Program-made: the position numbers and the translations under genes
Source of the DNA: Alphaproteobacteria bacterium
GTDB taxonomy: Bacteria; Pseudomonadota; Alphaproteobacteria; UBA828
Direction: 5' to 3'
NCBI GenBank assembly: GCA_022826665.1
Contig: JAJDUK010000063.1
Location: 1 to 64,000, forward strand
DNA length: 64,000 nt
In this document: positions 54,531 to 60,567 of the stretch, piece by piece
Numbering within the stretch: the stretch's first letter is position 1
How the letters are laid out: every line of letters begins with the position of its first letter
Notes under the pieces: generated by a model
Told to the model about the DNA's origin: nothing
Database searches by the model: none
What the model saw: the letters and a program-made list of their open reading frames with translations, nothing else

Positions 54531-55103
54531 TCAGTCTATCAGAATGCGGATGACGACGCCGCCCATCACATCGCCGACCTCGATGTCGCGGCGCGGGGAA
54601 TCCTTGTGATCGTTGTGGCAGAGCGCGCAGGCTTCGGCGACGGCGTAATCGGGATAGACAGCGGTGAAGTACTCTTCCCCGCCAAGCTCCTCTTCGCCGT
54701 AGAAATTCTCCCCTGGGTTGTCCACGACGAATTCCAGGCCTTCCCTCTCCAAGTCCGTGCCAGGACCGTTCTTCTTGTTGATCGGATCGAGCGAGAGCAG
54801 CGCGTAGGAGAAGTCCTCGGTCTCATCCATCGCCGCCTCGGCACCGAAGCGGAACATCTGAGCCGGCAGCGGCAATGCCAGGTCGTCCCGGAAGTGTTCG
54901 GACGCAGTGATAACCTTGTCGTCGACCGTGAGGCGTTGGATCACCATCTTCGTGTAGACTTCACGGTCTGCGGACATCACCGTGTACAGCATATCCGCGA
55001 CCTGCTCGTAAGAAACGTCGTCCGCTGCTGCGGTTGCCGCCGTCACCGTTGTCGCCGCGCCAACCGCCAGCGCCGCGGCGACCAGGCTTGATTTTCTCGT
55101 CAT
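54531..55103 (-). CDS. Exported single-haem protein (DUF3365/Tll0287-like)
   Basis: A 190-residue exported protein with signal MTRKSSLVAAALAVGAATTVTA. EACALCHNDHKDSPRRDIEVGD carries one CxxCH haem site near the C-terminus, and GDVMGGVVIRI follows as in DUF3365 haem-sensor domains. It is the third gene after the GPP34 fusion and the 11-haem cytochrome. It could relay electrons or sense redox state in the periplasm. Confidence 0.85.
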   Translation of the reverse strand: MTRKSSLVAAALAVGAATTVTAATAAADDVSYEQVADMLYTVMSADREVYTKMVIQRLTVDDKVITASEHFRDDLALPLPAQMFRFGAEAAMDETEDFSYALLSLDPINKKNGPGTDLEREGLEFVVDNPGENFYGEEELGGEEYFTAVYPDYAVAEACALCHNDHKDSPRRDIEVGDVMGGVVIRILID

Positions 55104-55151
55104 GACGCTTCTCCTGTCCTCTCAGGTTTCAGTCGGCACGCGGCTGGGCGC

Positions 55152-56630
55152 TCAACGCTCATCGTCCTGCGCGCCCGCCTCCGCATGCCGCACTGCCCAC
55201 TCGATACTCTCGACATGGACCGCGGGCTGTCCCTGGAAGTTTCCGGCCACGAGGTCCTCGTCCGCGAGTGCGTTGATGGCGAAGCCGAGACTGTGGCAAT
55301 CGAGGCAGACGGGCCGGATCATCTTCTCGTTCGGCCGTAGGCCGTCGCTCTGGTTGTGGCTGGTGAAGATCGTGTCGCGGCGCTCCACCTTGAACATGTG
55401 GCAGGTGGCGCAGCTCACGCCGGAGCCGGGCTCTGCGTCGCCGGCAACCTCCGCCTGCCAGAGCACATGATGCGGACTGCCAAGGTAGGCCACGGTGTGG
55501 GAGTCGTCGTGGCAGGACATGCAGGCCTCCACCGCGGCGCGCTCGACATCGACCGGGTGCGGCCGGTGACAGGAACCGCAATCGAGCGAGAGATGAGCCG
55601 CATCGTCGCGCATGGGCACGCGTGCCTCGGCCACCGTCATCAGCGAGGGATGAGGCTCGTCCGAAAGCCAGTCTGCAACTGAGCCGGGCAGCACGGTATC
55701 GAGGACGGTGTCCGACGCATCGCGCGGCCGCGCGACTTCGGGGTGTTGGCGCATGCCGTGGCGACCGAGCGCGAAGGTCTTCGCTTCCTGTTTATGACAG
55801 TGCCTGCATACCGTGAGCCGCGCCTCGTCGGTCCAGCCGGCTTCGATCTCGGCAAGCGAAGCGCCTGACGCGACCTCCGGCGCGTGGCAGGCGGCGCAGT
55901 TCACGTCCGCTGCCGCATGTCCCGAGCCGGCCCAGTGATCGAGGGCTTCGGTGTCCGCGAGCGCCGCCGCCGGAGCCACGGCGTCCTCTCGCCCGAGCGC
56001 CTCCTCCCGTGGCGGTTCCCAGGTGCGGTGGCGGGCCGCCAGCGCGTGCACGGGCGTTTCAGCCAGCCAGGGCTGCTCCGCGTGCTTCACCAGGAAGTCC
56101 GCATAGAGCGCGCGATTGTCGTGATAGTTGTGGCAGCCCGAAGACGCACAGGTGTCGAAGGTGAGGTCGGCATGCGTGGGGCGGGCCGTTCGCACGTCCT
56201 GCTCGCCCTCGCCGTGGCACGCCTCGCAGAAATCCATCGCGACAGTAACTGCCCCTTTACGGGTGATCTCGGGGCGATGCTCGACATGGCAGGAAACGCA
56301 GGACCTGCCATCGATGGGTTCCCAGTAGACGGCCATCCTGGGGTTGCGGAACTTCTTGCGCGGGTGGCTGTCCTCGGCGTCGTTCAGCTCGTCCTGGTGG
56401 CAGGCCCGGCAGGCCTTGTGCAGCCCCTTTCTCGCATCCGCCCTGCTGGCGAAGACGGCTGCGGTGTGGCAGCTCTCGCAGGCCAGCTCGAACTGGTGGT
56501 GGGCGTCGGTGGTTGCGCCGATCAGGAGGACTTCGCGATCGCCGCCCACCGTCATCCACACCGTGATCACGCCGACCGCCGCCAGGGTAATCAGCACCCA
56601 GGAGACGTGAAGGACCGTCTTGCGCGACAT
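55152..56630 (-). CDS. Membrane-anchored 11-haem c-type cytochrome
   Basis: A 492-residue protein with one N-terminal membrane anchor (VLITLAAVGVITVWMTVGG). Ten CxxCH motifs are visible (CESCH, CRACH, CVSCH, CEACH, CAACH, CRHCH, CGSCH, CMSCH, CATCH and CLDCH). One C-x4-CH (CASSGCH) brings the predicted haem count to 11. Multihaem cytochromes of this kind conduct electrons between the membrane and periplasmic or extracellular partners. The start is 12 bases after the GPP34-fusion gene, so they are co-transcribed. The electron donor and acceptor are unknown. Confidence 0.9.
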   Translation of the reverse strand: MSRKTVLHVSWVLITLAAVGVITVWMTVGGDREVLLIGATTDAHHQFELACESCHTAAVFASRADARKGLHKACRACHQDELNDAEDSHPRKKFRNPRMAVYWEPIDGRSCVSCHVEHRPEITRKGAVTVAMDFCEACHGEGEQDVRTARPTHADLTFDTCASSGCHNYHDNRALYADFLVKHAEQPWLAETPVHALAARHRTWEPPREEALGREDAVAPAAALADTEALDHWAGSGHAAADVNCAACHAPEVASGASLAEIEAGWTDEARLTVCRHCHKQEAKTFALGRHGMRQHPEVARPRDASDTVLDTVLPGSVADWLSDEPHPSLMTVAEARVPMRDDAAHLSLDCGSCHRPHPVDVERAAVEACMSCHDDSHTVAYLGSPHHVLWQAEVAGDAEPGSGVSCATCHMFKVERRDTIFTSHNQSDGLRPNEKMIRPVCLDCHSLGFAINALADEDLVAGNFQGQPAVHVESIEWAVRHAEAGAQDDER

Positions 56631-56642
56631 GCACGGGCCTCA

Positions 56643-57818
56643 TCAGTACATGTAGACGATGAGGATGTGGATGATCAGGAGAGCCGGCAGGGGAACGAGC
56701 GCAATGATGTGCACCCTCATCGGAATGACGCGTTGTTTTGGCTTGATCCCCCATTTTCTGAGTTGGACCGCCGCGTTGGTGCAGACCCCGGCCAGGCCGC
56801 CCAGGACCAGCACCGCCAGGAAGCAGCCCATCAGCGCCGCGTTTAGACTGGTGCCTAAACGAAAGCCCGTGTGCGCGAACAGGGCGAGCACGCAGGCGAT
56901 GCCGAACCCGACATGAGCCAGTCGCCACCAGTTGAAGCCGCCCAGGCGGGTGATCGCTCGCAGCTTCAGGAGCAGAACCGCGAGCACGCCTGAGCCGCTT
57001 AGTCCGAGAAGCGCAAAGCCGCTCCACAGTTGCCAGCCGCCGTCGAACCAGAGACGCTCTAGGAACAGGGCACTGAACCGATCCGCCACCGGGATTCTTG
57101 GGACCACAAGAGTCGCGAACGCGACCACACCCGCGGCGATGGAGAGGATCAGCAGCAGCTTCTTGAACTGTGCCGCTCGGGCCCGCACGGCCTGAATGAC
57201 CGAGCGCTCGATCTCGGCGACCGCGCCGGCCACCTCGCGCCCGATCAGGTCCATCTTGCGCAACAAAGCGATCCGGGGACGATAATCCTCTATCTCCTGT
57301 CTCGGGAAGATGTCGGGGAGGATCTCGCAGGCGTCCAGCAGGGAGATCAGAGCGACATCCCGAGGGTCGGGAATCTCGTCGGAGCTCAACACGTCCGCGA
57401 CGTGCTGGCGGAGCTCTGTCGCGGCCTTGCCGTCGCCGCTCGGATAGCGTCGGCCGCGTACCCACGGGATCCTGCTCTCCCGCACCGTCAGGACGCCTTG
57501 CTCCACGAGGCCCGCCAGGGTTTGCTCCTGAATGGTGGGCGCCTCCTCGACCGAGAGCACCCCGAGCCAGGTCTTGGTATCGCAAACCTCAGTGCGGGCA
57601 GCGATCCTTGCCAGTATGCGGTCGAGCGCGGGATTGCCGACGGGCGTCGGGTCGTTGACGAAGAGCGCTTCGAGGTCGGTATCGATCCGGTTTGCGAACG
57701 CCAGGTCCATCAGCACAGCGCCCGCGAGTGCGCTCGCCACGATGTCCTGCCGGACCGGCAAGGGCGCGCCGTCCTCGTCGTTCAGCAGAAGGACGAGGTC
57801 TTCGCTGAAGGTCAGCAC
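56643..57818 (-). CDS. GPP34 domain fused to a dihaem cytochrome b-like membrane domain
   Basis: A 391-residue protein. The N-terminal 200 residues match the GPP34 (GOLPH3/Vps74-type) domain, beginning MLTFSEDLVLLLNDEDG, then ALAGAVLMDLAFANRIDTDLE. About five hydrophobic segments follow. H302 and H316 lie in one helix (LAHVGF...FAHTGF) and H370 and H384 in another (VHIIALV...LIIHIL), each pair separated by exactly 13 residues. This H-x13-H pattern is the bis-histidine layout of two b-type haems. The protein probably passes electrons through the membrane to or from the 11-haem cytochrome encoded next. GPP34 domains elsewhere bind membrane lipids. Confidence 0.85.
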   Translation of the reverse strand: MLTFSEDLVLLLNDEDGAPLPVRQDIVASALAGAVLMDLAFANRIDTDLEALFVNDPTPVGNPALDRILARIAARTEVCDTKTWLGVLSVEEAPTIQEQTLAGLVEQGVLTVRESRIPWVRGRRYPSGDGKAATELRQHVADVLSSDEIPDPRDVALISLLDACEILPDIFPRQEIEDYRPRIALLRKMDLIGREVAGAVAEIERSVIQAVRARAAQFKKLLLILSIAAGVVAFATLVVPRIPVADRFSALFLERLWFDGGWQLWSGFALLGLSGSGVLAVLLLKLRAITRLGGFNWWRLAHVGFGIACVLALFAHTGFRLGTSLNAALMGCFLAVLVLGGLAGVCTNAAVQLRKWGIKPKQRVIPMRVHIIALVPLPALLIIHILIVYMY

Positions 57819-58521: not shown

Positions 58522-60567
58522 CTACTCTTCGATCGTTCCCATCGCCGTGCCGTCTGTAATCAGCGCGCGGCCCGCCGCGTTCGAGAGGGTCAGTGTCAAC
58601 GTCTCCTCACCTTCGTCGTGCGTGTCGTCGAGCACGTTGACCGTAACCCACTTCATCCTGTCGCCCGCGGCAAAGACGAGAATACCACTCGTCCGCGTGT
58701 AGTCCCGGCCTGCCGTCGCGTTGCCGTCGGACGTCGCGTAATCCAGCCTGATCGTCCGAGGCGCCGGCCGGCTCAGCTTGACCCGGAAGGCGAGCGACTC
58801 ACCGGTCCTCTCCCTGGCTTGGGCGTTCTCCACCGAAACCAGGACCGGACCCGGAACTGTCGCCGTCAACGTGTTCGACAGCGGACGGCCGTCTCTCGTG
58901 CAGATGGCTCCGGCAGCATCGCAGGCCCGCCCGCCGGGAAGCGCGATGGTTAGGTCGCCCCAGGATGTGGGTTTGATGTCGATTTCTCGGAAGTCGTTGC
59001 GCCCGTCGACGCGCCGCGAGGCCCGAACCGTGCCACCCCTGACCTGGAATGACTTGTCCTTGAGCACCTTGTAGCTCACCGCCGCCGCCTCGCTGAACAG
59101 GACCCGGAAGGAGAAGGCGCCCGGGGCGGGCCCCCGGTGCTCCGACGGCATGCCGACGAAGCGCGCCGTCAGCGGTGGCCGTCCCTCCGGGCTCTCCGCC
59201 CGCCCGATCAGGACGTCCGCCAGCGCTCCGGGATCGATCGTACCGGATTCGCCCCTCTCCACGGATTCCAAAACCGTGGAGAAGGTCTCCAGCAGGTCTC
59301 CCAGCGAGCCCCTCTCCGGCCGCGGCGCACGCGCGGCGTCCGTAGCGGCGAGCAGCGTCCTCGCGGCATCCGCATCGAGATAGCCCGTCGCCTCGCTGCC
59401 GCGCGACCTCTGCCACTGGCCGATTGCGTTTCGTGTGCGCCTGCCGAACAGGCCGTCCGCCGGACCGGGATCGAATCCCAGCACTGCGAGGCCTTGTTGA
59501 ATCCGCAGGCGCTCGGCGCGCTCCAGACCTAGTGCCGCTTCTACCGCTTCAGGTCCGAGCTCGGGACGCGCCGGATCACCTGCACCCGCTGCCGGGCCGT
59601 GGCCGGCTTCCGCCTCTACCGCCGTGCCGGTCAGCCTCTTCAGCCGGTTGCGTGCGAGGGCAGCAAAGGCACCGTTCGGGTAGCTGTCGAGGTAGGCCCG
59701 CAGCTCCCACGGGTTGTCGCTGTCTTTTACGGACTCCCAAAACAGCAGTTCCTGCTCCGATGCCACGCGTTGCGAGGCAACCGGCGCAGGCTCCGGCCGT
59801 GGCGCGAGATAAACCCTGCGGTTCGACAGCGAGCCGTAGACGACCGGCTCCTGTCGACCTCCGGTCGAGGCCAGAACCGCGTCGCGCACCTTGCGGAACA
59901 TCCGGCCAACCCCGAGGCCCGGCTCCTCGAGGTGGCGCAACAATGCCGCGCTGTACGGGCTGTTGCGGCCCCTACCGTCAGACGCGACCGCGCCCGCCTT
60001 CGCCGCATACGCCACCAGCGTCTCGCCCGAGGGCTCCACCGGCGCAAGCCCGCGGCCGATCGAGCGCTTCGCTCCCGCCCGTTGCATCGACGCTGCGAAC
60101 GGGCTCCTGCGGGACGCATCCAGGATCACCAACCGCAGGCCCGGCGCGCGGGCCACCGCCTGCAGGACCAGGGCCAACGGCACCGTCTCGAACTCGACGT
60201 CGGCGTCGCTCAACAGACGCGCGTCGGTCGGAACCAGAAAGTTGCGTCGGTCCACCTGAATGGCGTGACCAGTGTAGAACACCAGTGCGACCTCGGACTC
60301 CGAGGCCGCAGACGCGAACTGCTGAAGGCTGCGTCGCAGTGCTGCGTACCCCGCATTCTCTGTTCGGGTTACCGCGAAGCCGAGATGTTCGAGCACCGCG
60401 CCGATATCTTCTGCATCGTTTTGAGGGGTCGCCAGCGTCGGCGCATGTGCGTAAGCAGCGTTGCCGACCACCAGCGCCACCCGTTGGTCCGCAGCCGCTG
60501 GCGCAGAGAGGACCGACAGCAGCAGGGCCGCCGCCGCAATCAAGGATGTCAATCTGAGCACCGGCAT
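58522..60567 (-). CDS. Caspase-like exported protein with Ser in place of the catalytic Cys
   Basis: A 681-residue exported protein. After the signal (MPVLRLTSLIAAAALLLSVL) comes a C14 peptidase-like domain (VALVVGNAAYAHAPTL). The catalytic His is in FYTGHAIQVD (H101). The catalytic site is LVILDASRRSPF, with Ser152 where family members have Cys in LDACR, so it should be a pseudo-enzyme. A peptidoglycan-binding domain follows (IQQGLAVLGFDPGPADGLFG) and a Calx-beta domain lies at the C-terminus (RDYTRTSGILVFAAGD). It may bind cell wall and partners without proteolysis. Confidence 0.88.
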   Translation of the reverse strand: MPVLRLTSLIAAAALLLSVLSAPAAADQRVALVVGNAAYAHAPTLATPQNDAEDIGAVLEHLGFAVTRTENAGYAALRRSLQQFASAASESEVALVFYTGHAIQVDRRNFLVPTDARLLSDADVEFETVPLALVLQAVARAPGLRLVILDASRRSPFAASMQRAGAKRSIGRGLAPVEPSGETLVAYAAKAGAVASDGRGRNSPYSAALLRHLEEPGLGVGRMFRKVRDAVLASTGGRQEPVVYGSLSNRRVYLAPRPEPAPVASQRVASEQELLFWESVKDSDNPWELRAYLDSYPNGAFAALARNRLKRLTGTAVEAEAGHGPAAGAGDPARPELGPEAVEAALGLERAERLRIQQGLAVLGFDPGPADGLFGRRTRNAIGQWQRSRGSEATGYLDADAARTLLAATDAARAPRPERGSLGDLLETFSTVLESVERGESGTIDPGALADVLIGRAESPEGRPPLTARFVGMPSEHRGPAPGAFSFRVLFSEAAAVSYKVLKDKSFQVRGGTVRASRRVDGRNDFREIDIKPTSWGDLTIALPGGRACDAAGAICTRDGRPLSNTLTATVPGPVLVSVENAQARERTGESLAFRVKLSRPAPRTIRLDYATSDGNATAGRDYTRTSGILVFAAGDRMKWVTVNVLDDTHDEGEETLTLTLSNAAGRALITDGTAMGTIEE

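Follow-up and report, generated by a model that had tools for sequence, protein, structure and literature searches.

A GPP34 (GOLPH3-like) domain fused to a cytochrome b-like protein in an alphaproteobacterial operon with an 11-haem cytochrome c

What could a domain known from a Golgi adaptor be doing on a membrane cytochrome of bacteria, which have neither a Golgi nor COPI? The question is raised by a 64,000-nt stretch of DNA (hereafter the window: positions 1-64,000 of contig JAJDUK010000063.1, assembly GCA_022826665.1, Alphaproteobacteria, UBA828), in which the first gene of a three-gene operon encodes a GPP34 (GOLPH3-like) domain fused to a two-haem cytochrome b-like membrane domain, followed by genes for an 11-haem cytochrome c and a one-haem sCache_heme (Tll0287/DUF3365) protein (Table 1). 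Bacterial members of this fold are nearly unexplored: the only functional paper on a bacterial GPP34 that we found, a study of Streptomyces SCO4440 and peptidoglycan (PMC12402492), states that descriptions of GOLPH3-like proteins from prokaryotes were lacking until then. In the literature searched, where the name GPP34 mainly denotes an unrelated pesticidal protein, no description was found of GPP34 together with cytochromes, nor of this fusion and its operon. In the present case the domain comes with a defined partner and has, in a single apparent event, replaced a domain of known chemistry.

The GPP34 match covers residues 6-203 of the fusion protein and positions 3-201 of the 201-position profile (E 5.7e-39; 134.7 bits vs. 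a cut-off of 29.1), directly ahead of a membrane domain that holds all the histidines of the protein except H139. These are H302, H316, H370 and H384, exactly the two H-x13-H pairs (H302/H316 and H370/H384) that the initial annotation, made from the sequence alone, had described as joined to a GPP34 domain. It had also named the next two genes as an 11-haem cytochrome and a single-haem DUF3365 protein; eleven haem motifs were counted in the former, and the latter combines a PF11845 match with one CxxCH, so that the earlier reading of the sequence was correct in all details open to testing. The three genes lie on a single strand with intergenic gaps of 12 and 48 bases.

An alignment of the 11-haem protein was scanned against 84,980 species genomes, which yielded 80 loci; because these were sampled in order of their similarity to the window protein, deeper diversity is undersampled. 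The initial annotation had called for a survey of the co-occurrence of GPP34 with cytochrome genes, and in this one the cytochrome b is headed by GPP34 at 45 of the 80 loci and by an NAD(P)H/flavin adenine dinucleotide (FAD) oxidoreductase at 30, the latter composed of Pyr_redox_2, Rubredoxin_C and a BFD [2Fe-2S] domain in the representatives scanned with Pfam. This flavoprotein head was also found among 398 phylum genomes searched (G505) and in a search of the class (G361), and in another genome of the phylum search (G521) the head consists of BFD and an FNR-type reductase; the cytochrome b profile and the 11-haem protein matched the same 3 of the 398 genomes. Within the genus, the GPP34 fusion was found only in the window assembly (G000) and in G016, other GPP34 genes being stand-alone or fused otherwise, and within the class it also occurs in G382 (two copies, 69% and 56%) and G384 (55%). 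A quick tree of 81 11-haem proteins, with long branches at its base, requires a single change between flavoprotein and GPP34 heads: the GPP34-type loci form a clade with a Shimodaira-Hasegawa-like approximate likelihood ratio test (SH-aLRT) support of 100 (48 rows, 44 with GPP34, the head being missing or cut off by contig ends in the rest), nested within the flavoprotein type and adjoining Rhodobacteraceae/Albimonas forms. The point of exchange lies just before the first transmembrane helix (TM1). Judged by these comparisons, and beyond what the earlier reading had proposed, GPP34 occupies the place of the NAD(P)H-oxidising head of its relatives.

The exchange was accompanied by further losses. 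A globin gene follows at 27 of the 30 flavoprotein loci, including the three nearest sisters (L118, L166, and L168), and a class I cytochrome c gene at 23 of 30, vs. none of the 45 GPP34 loci in either case, although at 37 of these > 2.5 kb of sequence extends past the 11-haem gene. Searches of four GPP34-type genomes returned no globin, although the positive control was detected, and nothing close to the flavoprotein head (best about 31% identity, compared with ~50% among the fused heads themselves). With flavoprotein and globin both absent alongside GPP34, the arrival of GPP34 coincided with the loss of the known redox components on the cytoplasmic side, and no fourth gene, for an outer-membrane porin or otherwise, is conserved in the GPP34 form. 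These results bear on an alternative in which GPP34 serves as the docking site of a separate cytosolic reductase, so that NAD(P)H would enter in trans through what is now a free subunit and the path would be otherwise unchanged. GOLPH3 is itself an adaptor (PMC13408441) and these genomes do contain FAD/NAD(P)H reductases of a generic kind (in G000 the best is C73:139664-140839, a 464-aa frame with 31% identity), but relatives near ~50% are lacking in the four genomes, no conserved reductase gene adjoins the operon, and the globin partner is gone too. Supply of the flavoprotein itself in trans was rejected on the first of these grounds, and the docking of a reductase is in our view unlikely.

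The flavoprotein-headed sister operon (e.g., L137, L151, L159, L171, and L173; hosts include Donghicola, Actibacterium, Pelagimonas, and Filomicrobium) shares with the window its gene order and homologous genes for the cytochrome b, the 11-haem protein and the sCache_heme protein, and differs from the GPP34 form in its NAD(P)H entry and its globin. Its full content, i.e., NAD(P)H-flavoprotein/BFD/cytochrome b, 11-haem cytochrome c, sCache_heme protein and often a class I cytochrome c and a globin, would make up a conduit from NAD(P)H to 11 haems that includes a globin and a haem-Cache protein and is apparently undescribed, no account of it having been found in the literature searched. While the GPP34 form occurs in mostly uncultured proteobacteria, the sister operon is carried by named marine Rhodobacteraceae isolates and is open to direct study.

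All 45 GPP34-type loci come from metagenome-assembled genomes, and bin names such as COS and RHO, which we infer to be linked to sponges (a list of sponge species is given in PMC8163846), suggest sponge symbionts. A second copy of the operon in the window assembly (G000:C96:3568-6844) is 97.9% identical to G016 over 10 kb vs. 88-90% elsewhere and may be contamination from a G016-like strain or a recent transfer. That the fusion arose through an error of assembly or annotation, or that its GPP34 is decaying and was kept by chance, is nevertheless highly improbable: dozens of independent contigs repeat the three-gene order, some assemblies with the fusion are chromosome-level (L110, L120, L121, and L129), and the 45 loci share a common junction, gene order and invariant histidines. 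Non-synonymous rates (dN) were well below synonymous rates (dS) in most pairs tested, for GPP34 as for the cytochrome b (weakest in L110/L120), and decay of GPP34 was rejected on these ratios together with the invariance. In one chromosome-level assembly (L119) the cytochrome b is headless and a separate GPP34 gene (E 1.7e-54), which clusters with stand-alone GPP34s outside the fused clade, starts 42 bases past the stop codon of the Tll0287 gene. Purifying selection and the retention of an unfused GPP34 gene in this operon indicate that GPP34 is of importance to the module, and its persistence where unfused, together with the head swap, makes a testable case for the role of the fold outside the Golgi.

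Table 1. Features of the GPP34-cytochrome b operon, in window coordinates
Feature	Positions	Strand	Details or basis
GPP34-cytochrome b fusion, open reading frame	56643-57818	-	391 aa, GTG start
GPP34 (GOLPH3-like) domain, fusion residues 1-203, predicted cytoplasmic, net charge -15	57210-57818	-	Pfam PF05719, AlphaFold model
Two-haem cytochrome b-like membrane domain, residues 204-391, net charge +15	56643-57209	-	Hydropathy, loop charges, homology to flavoprotein-headed cytochrome b
H302, first His of TM3 pair, near cytosolic side	56913-56915	-	Invariant 80/80; side from topology
H316, second His of TM3 pair, near periplasmic side	56871-56873	-	Invariant 80/80
H370, first His of TM5 pair, near cytosolic side	56709-56711	-	Invariant 80/80
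H384, second His of TM5 pair, near periplasmic side	56667-56669	-	Invariant 80/80
11-haem cytochrome c, N-terminal membrane anchor, periplasmic	55152-56630	-	Motifs; conservation in 67 homologues; profile match
One-haem periplasmic sCache_heme protein (Tll0287/DUF3365)	54531-55103	-	Pfam PF11845, E 4.4e-18; conservation in 76 sequences

Hydropathy indicates about five TM helices in the membrane domain. Its positive-inside loop charges fit a cytosolic N-terminus, which would place the first histidine of each pair towards the cytosol and the second towards the periplasm. All four histidines are invariant in the 80 cytochrome b domains aligned, i.e., in 47/47 GPP34 fusions and in 33/33 further homologues without a fused GPP34, so two pairs on two TM helices are present throughout, as in two-haem cytochromes b. 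GPP34-only homologues without these pairs, which the initial annotation had regarded as a potential refutation of its reading, do exist, yet they show only that the modules are separable. No member of the cytochrome b domain matched Pfam above the curated cut-off (48 scanned); the most frequent sub-threshold matches were to DUF4405 (17/48, best 0.0012), Ni_hydr_CYTB (prokaryotic cytochrome b561; 12/48), DUF4079 (10/48) and Ferric_reduct (5/48). NCBIfam gave no match for the fusion, and a profile search of solved structures returned nothing useful for the cytochrome b. The modelled membrane half matched only helical bundles such as TMEM120A, no better than helical-bundle background and not open to interpretation at the low confidence of this part of the model.

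The 11-haem protein carries one N-terminal hydrophobic segment, ten CxxCH motifs and one Cx4CH (CASSGCH). Thirteen extra histidines are invariant or nearly so among its 67 homologues, sufficient to give each of the 11 haems bis-His ligation, and this would favour electron carriage over catalysis. Its family profile matches octahaem nitrite reductase/NrfA across haem-pair segments (E 4e-11), but the matches are local, without full-length homology, and all eleven motifs end in CH, leaving no CxxCK catalytic haem. Foldseek with the whole 11-haem model gave no match at E ≤ 0.001, and the decahaem matches in NCBIfam were rejected, all of them being below the cut-off.

The third protein has a hydrophobic N-terminus resembling a signal peptide (NCBIfam Stx matches there were dismissed as chance signal-peptide matches far below the cut-off) and a CxxCH at residues 159-163 (54615-54629) that is present in 75/75 sequences reaching that position. 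M83 is invariant in its family (76/76) and H166 is kept in 75/76. Stand-alone sCache_heme domains of the Tll0287 type have Cys/His haem ligation and redox roles, whereas signalling-fused ones have been linked to nitric oxide (NO) sensing, the sole tested one lacking the axial Cys (PMC12889525). The window protein has the two motif cysteines only and thus no axial Cys of the Tll0287 type, and by analogy its role may be either redox or NO sensing.

Taken together, the operon would encode an inner-membrane conduit in which the two-haem cytochrome b works with two periplasmic proteins, the anchored 11-haem wire and the one-haem sCache partner. In its ancestral form, electrons from NAD(P)H would enter through the fused FAD/NAD(P)H (Pyr_redox_2 and Rubredoxin_C) and BFD [2Fe-2S] head and run from NAD(P)H via FAD, [2Fe-2S] and two haems b to the 11 haems c. 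In one ancestor, GPP34 would have taken the place of this head just before TM1, with loss of the globin partner gene. GPP34 has no known redox cofactor, and the NAD(P)H entry is consequently gone; the quinone pool would be the most economical donor or acceptor after this loss, and the GPP34-form module most likely takes electrons from it, or passes them to it, being now probably quinol-fed. Cbc-type inner-membrane quinol oxidoreductases of Geobacter likewise pass electrons from a haem b membrane unit to periplasmic multihaem cytochromes c. The likeness lies in the probable way of working; the window system differs in that its cytochrome b bears GPP34 as a cytosolic head and that its 11-haem and sCache_heme components are separate proteins. 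The transmembrane electron-transfer module proposed in the initial annotation is thus upheld by its anatomy, namely by invariant His pairs on two helices and by flavoprotein/[2Fe-2S] sisters, but the lipid-binding head that it had assigned to this module, in the sense of GOLPH3, is not.

The GPP34 domain does have the GOLPH3 fold. The AlphaFold model of the fusion is good for the GPP34 part only, and this part matches GOLPH3 9qpq (Z 20.3, root-mean-square deviation 3.0 over 198 residues, 22% identity; Foldseek E 5.8e-08) with the same hydrophobic hairpin and an acidic head. The phosphatidylinositol 4-phosphate (PtdIns(4)P) residues of GOLPH3, W81, R90, R171 and R174 (PMC13408441), align with R23, A32, P94 and Q97 in the window protein. 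Arg never occurs at the R90 position (47/47 fusions have A, V, T or L there), R174 is the sole position often kept in the family (Arg in 29/47), and stand-alone GPP34 relatives likewise lack W81 and R90. With none of the four ligand residues present, PtdIns(4)P-like lipid binding was rejected for the window protein, which does not fit the GOLPH3/Vps74 type of PtdIns(4)P effector. Another membrane lipid may be bound, as the hairpin is largely kept (W119 in 35/47), and GPP34 could then act as a sensor of lipid composition or membrane curvature, or as an anchor, with another surface on anionic bacterial lipids; fusions of GPP34 to P450 and MFS proteins would fit such a general membrane-proximal domain. 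Besides the missing PtdIns(4)P residues, the strong acidity of the head is unfavourable for anionic lipids and a protein with about five TM helices needs no anchor, and we therefore regard this role as improbable.

The same acidity may hint at another partner. Net charge is about -13 in GPP34 heads (-15 in the window protein) vs. about +15 in the cytochrome b, and the cytosolic loops are more basic in the GPP34 form (+5.0/+4.8) than in the flavoprotein form (+3.5/+3.7). In GOLPH3, an acidic groove holds the basic cytosolic tails of Golgi enzymes (PMC13408441). We hypothesize that the acidic head, descended from stand-alone bacterial GPP34s, docks in cis on its own cytochrome b by way of the latter's basic cytosolic loops, where a non-redox GPP34 would cap or gate the cytosolic haem side. 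A conduit in which GPP34 has replaced the NAD(P)H head, is linked to quinone and is docked in cis is the best explanation of the whole, and we give it an even chance of being correct in all these parts. Several points weigh against it. Charge matching is weak evidence, since membrane proteins in general are expected to have basic cytosolic loops and the stand-alone GPP34s share the acidity, and the comparison of the two forms is confounded by phylogeny. The client-binding D247 of GOLPH3 corresponds to E165 in the window and varies across the family (nearby, D162 is present in 46/47 fusions). No quinone site was identifiable in the cytochrome b, and the membrane half of the AlphaFold model has a low predicted local distance difference test score (pLDDT, about 40-80), for which reason the haems are placed by sequence.

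Stand-alone bacterial GPP34s, e.g., SCO4440 of Streptomyces coelicolor (PMC12402492), share the domain, and none is joined to a cytochrome b; most copies from the same genus as the window are 52-60% identical to the fused head. In the genus and the class, stand-alone GPP34 genes often have a STAS (anti-sigma antagonist) gene at a distance of 12-150 bases or a REC-SpoIIE gene at one of about 135-300 bases (e.g., L044:5052-5417, L045:6271-6606, L088:3436-5033, and L032:5398-6597), with HATPase_c_2 near some, and this link between GPP34 and partner switching is apparently undescribed, no GPP34 with STAS having been reported in the literature searched. The fused head might accordingly be a regulatory gate under a partner-switching (STAS/SpoIIE phosphatase/HATPase) pathway that acts on the stand-alone GPP34s of the same bacteria, among which the fused ones sit in a quick tree (SH-aLRT 94, some forks open). 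However, no STAS or SpoIIE match was found within 2.5 kb of GPP34 at any fused locus, and a link of the ancestor does not prove one for the fusion, which makes such a gate rather unlikely. More doubtful still is the fuller version, in which the GOLPH3 fold is the regulated output of the STAS/SpoIIE pathway and was fused where the cytochrome had its NAD(P)H dehydrogenase head, leaving a signalling protein instead of a substrate to decide whether electrons cross the membrane to the 11-haem wire.

Other gene contexts were noted in passing. Directly upstream of the operon (window 58522-60567, minus strand) lies a gene for a protein with Caspase-like (Peptidase_C14), peptidoglycan-binding and Calx-beta domains, and a promoter and terminator scan at the operon gave nothing informative. 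GPP34 is fused to p450 (Pfam) in L033:6285-8414 and L082:4462-6543, with similar long frames, only some of which were scanned with Pfam, in G382 and several genomes from the window genus, and to a major facilitator superfamily (MFS) transporter in L083:5289-7292. In other families of the class (L065, L070, L073, and L074) GPP34 is followed by a C-terminal domain of ~200 aa with a WEWRAFW motif; none of these P450, MFS and WEWRAFW fusions is described in the literature searched. In L078 (G179), a GPP34 gene is directly followed by one for a small membrane protein that is CopD-like by eye. Finally, L080:2956-8026 (G263) encodes in a row a protein that by eye is FAD/cyclic-nucleotide-binding/4Fe-4S-like, a distant cytochrome b and a multihaem protein (ten haem motifs), possibly another cytosol-to-multihaem conduit.

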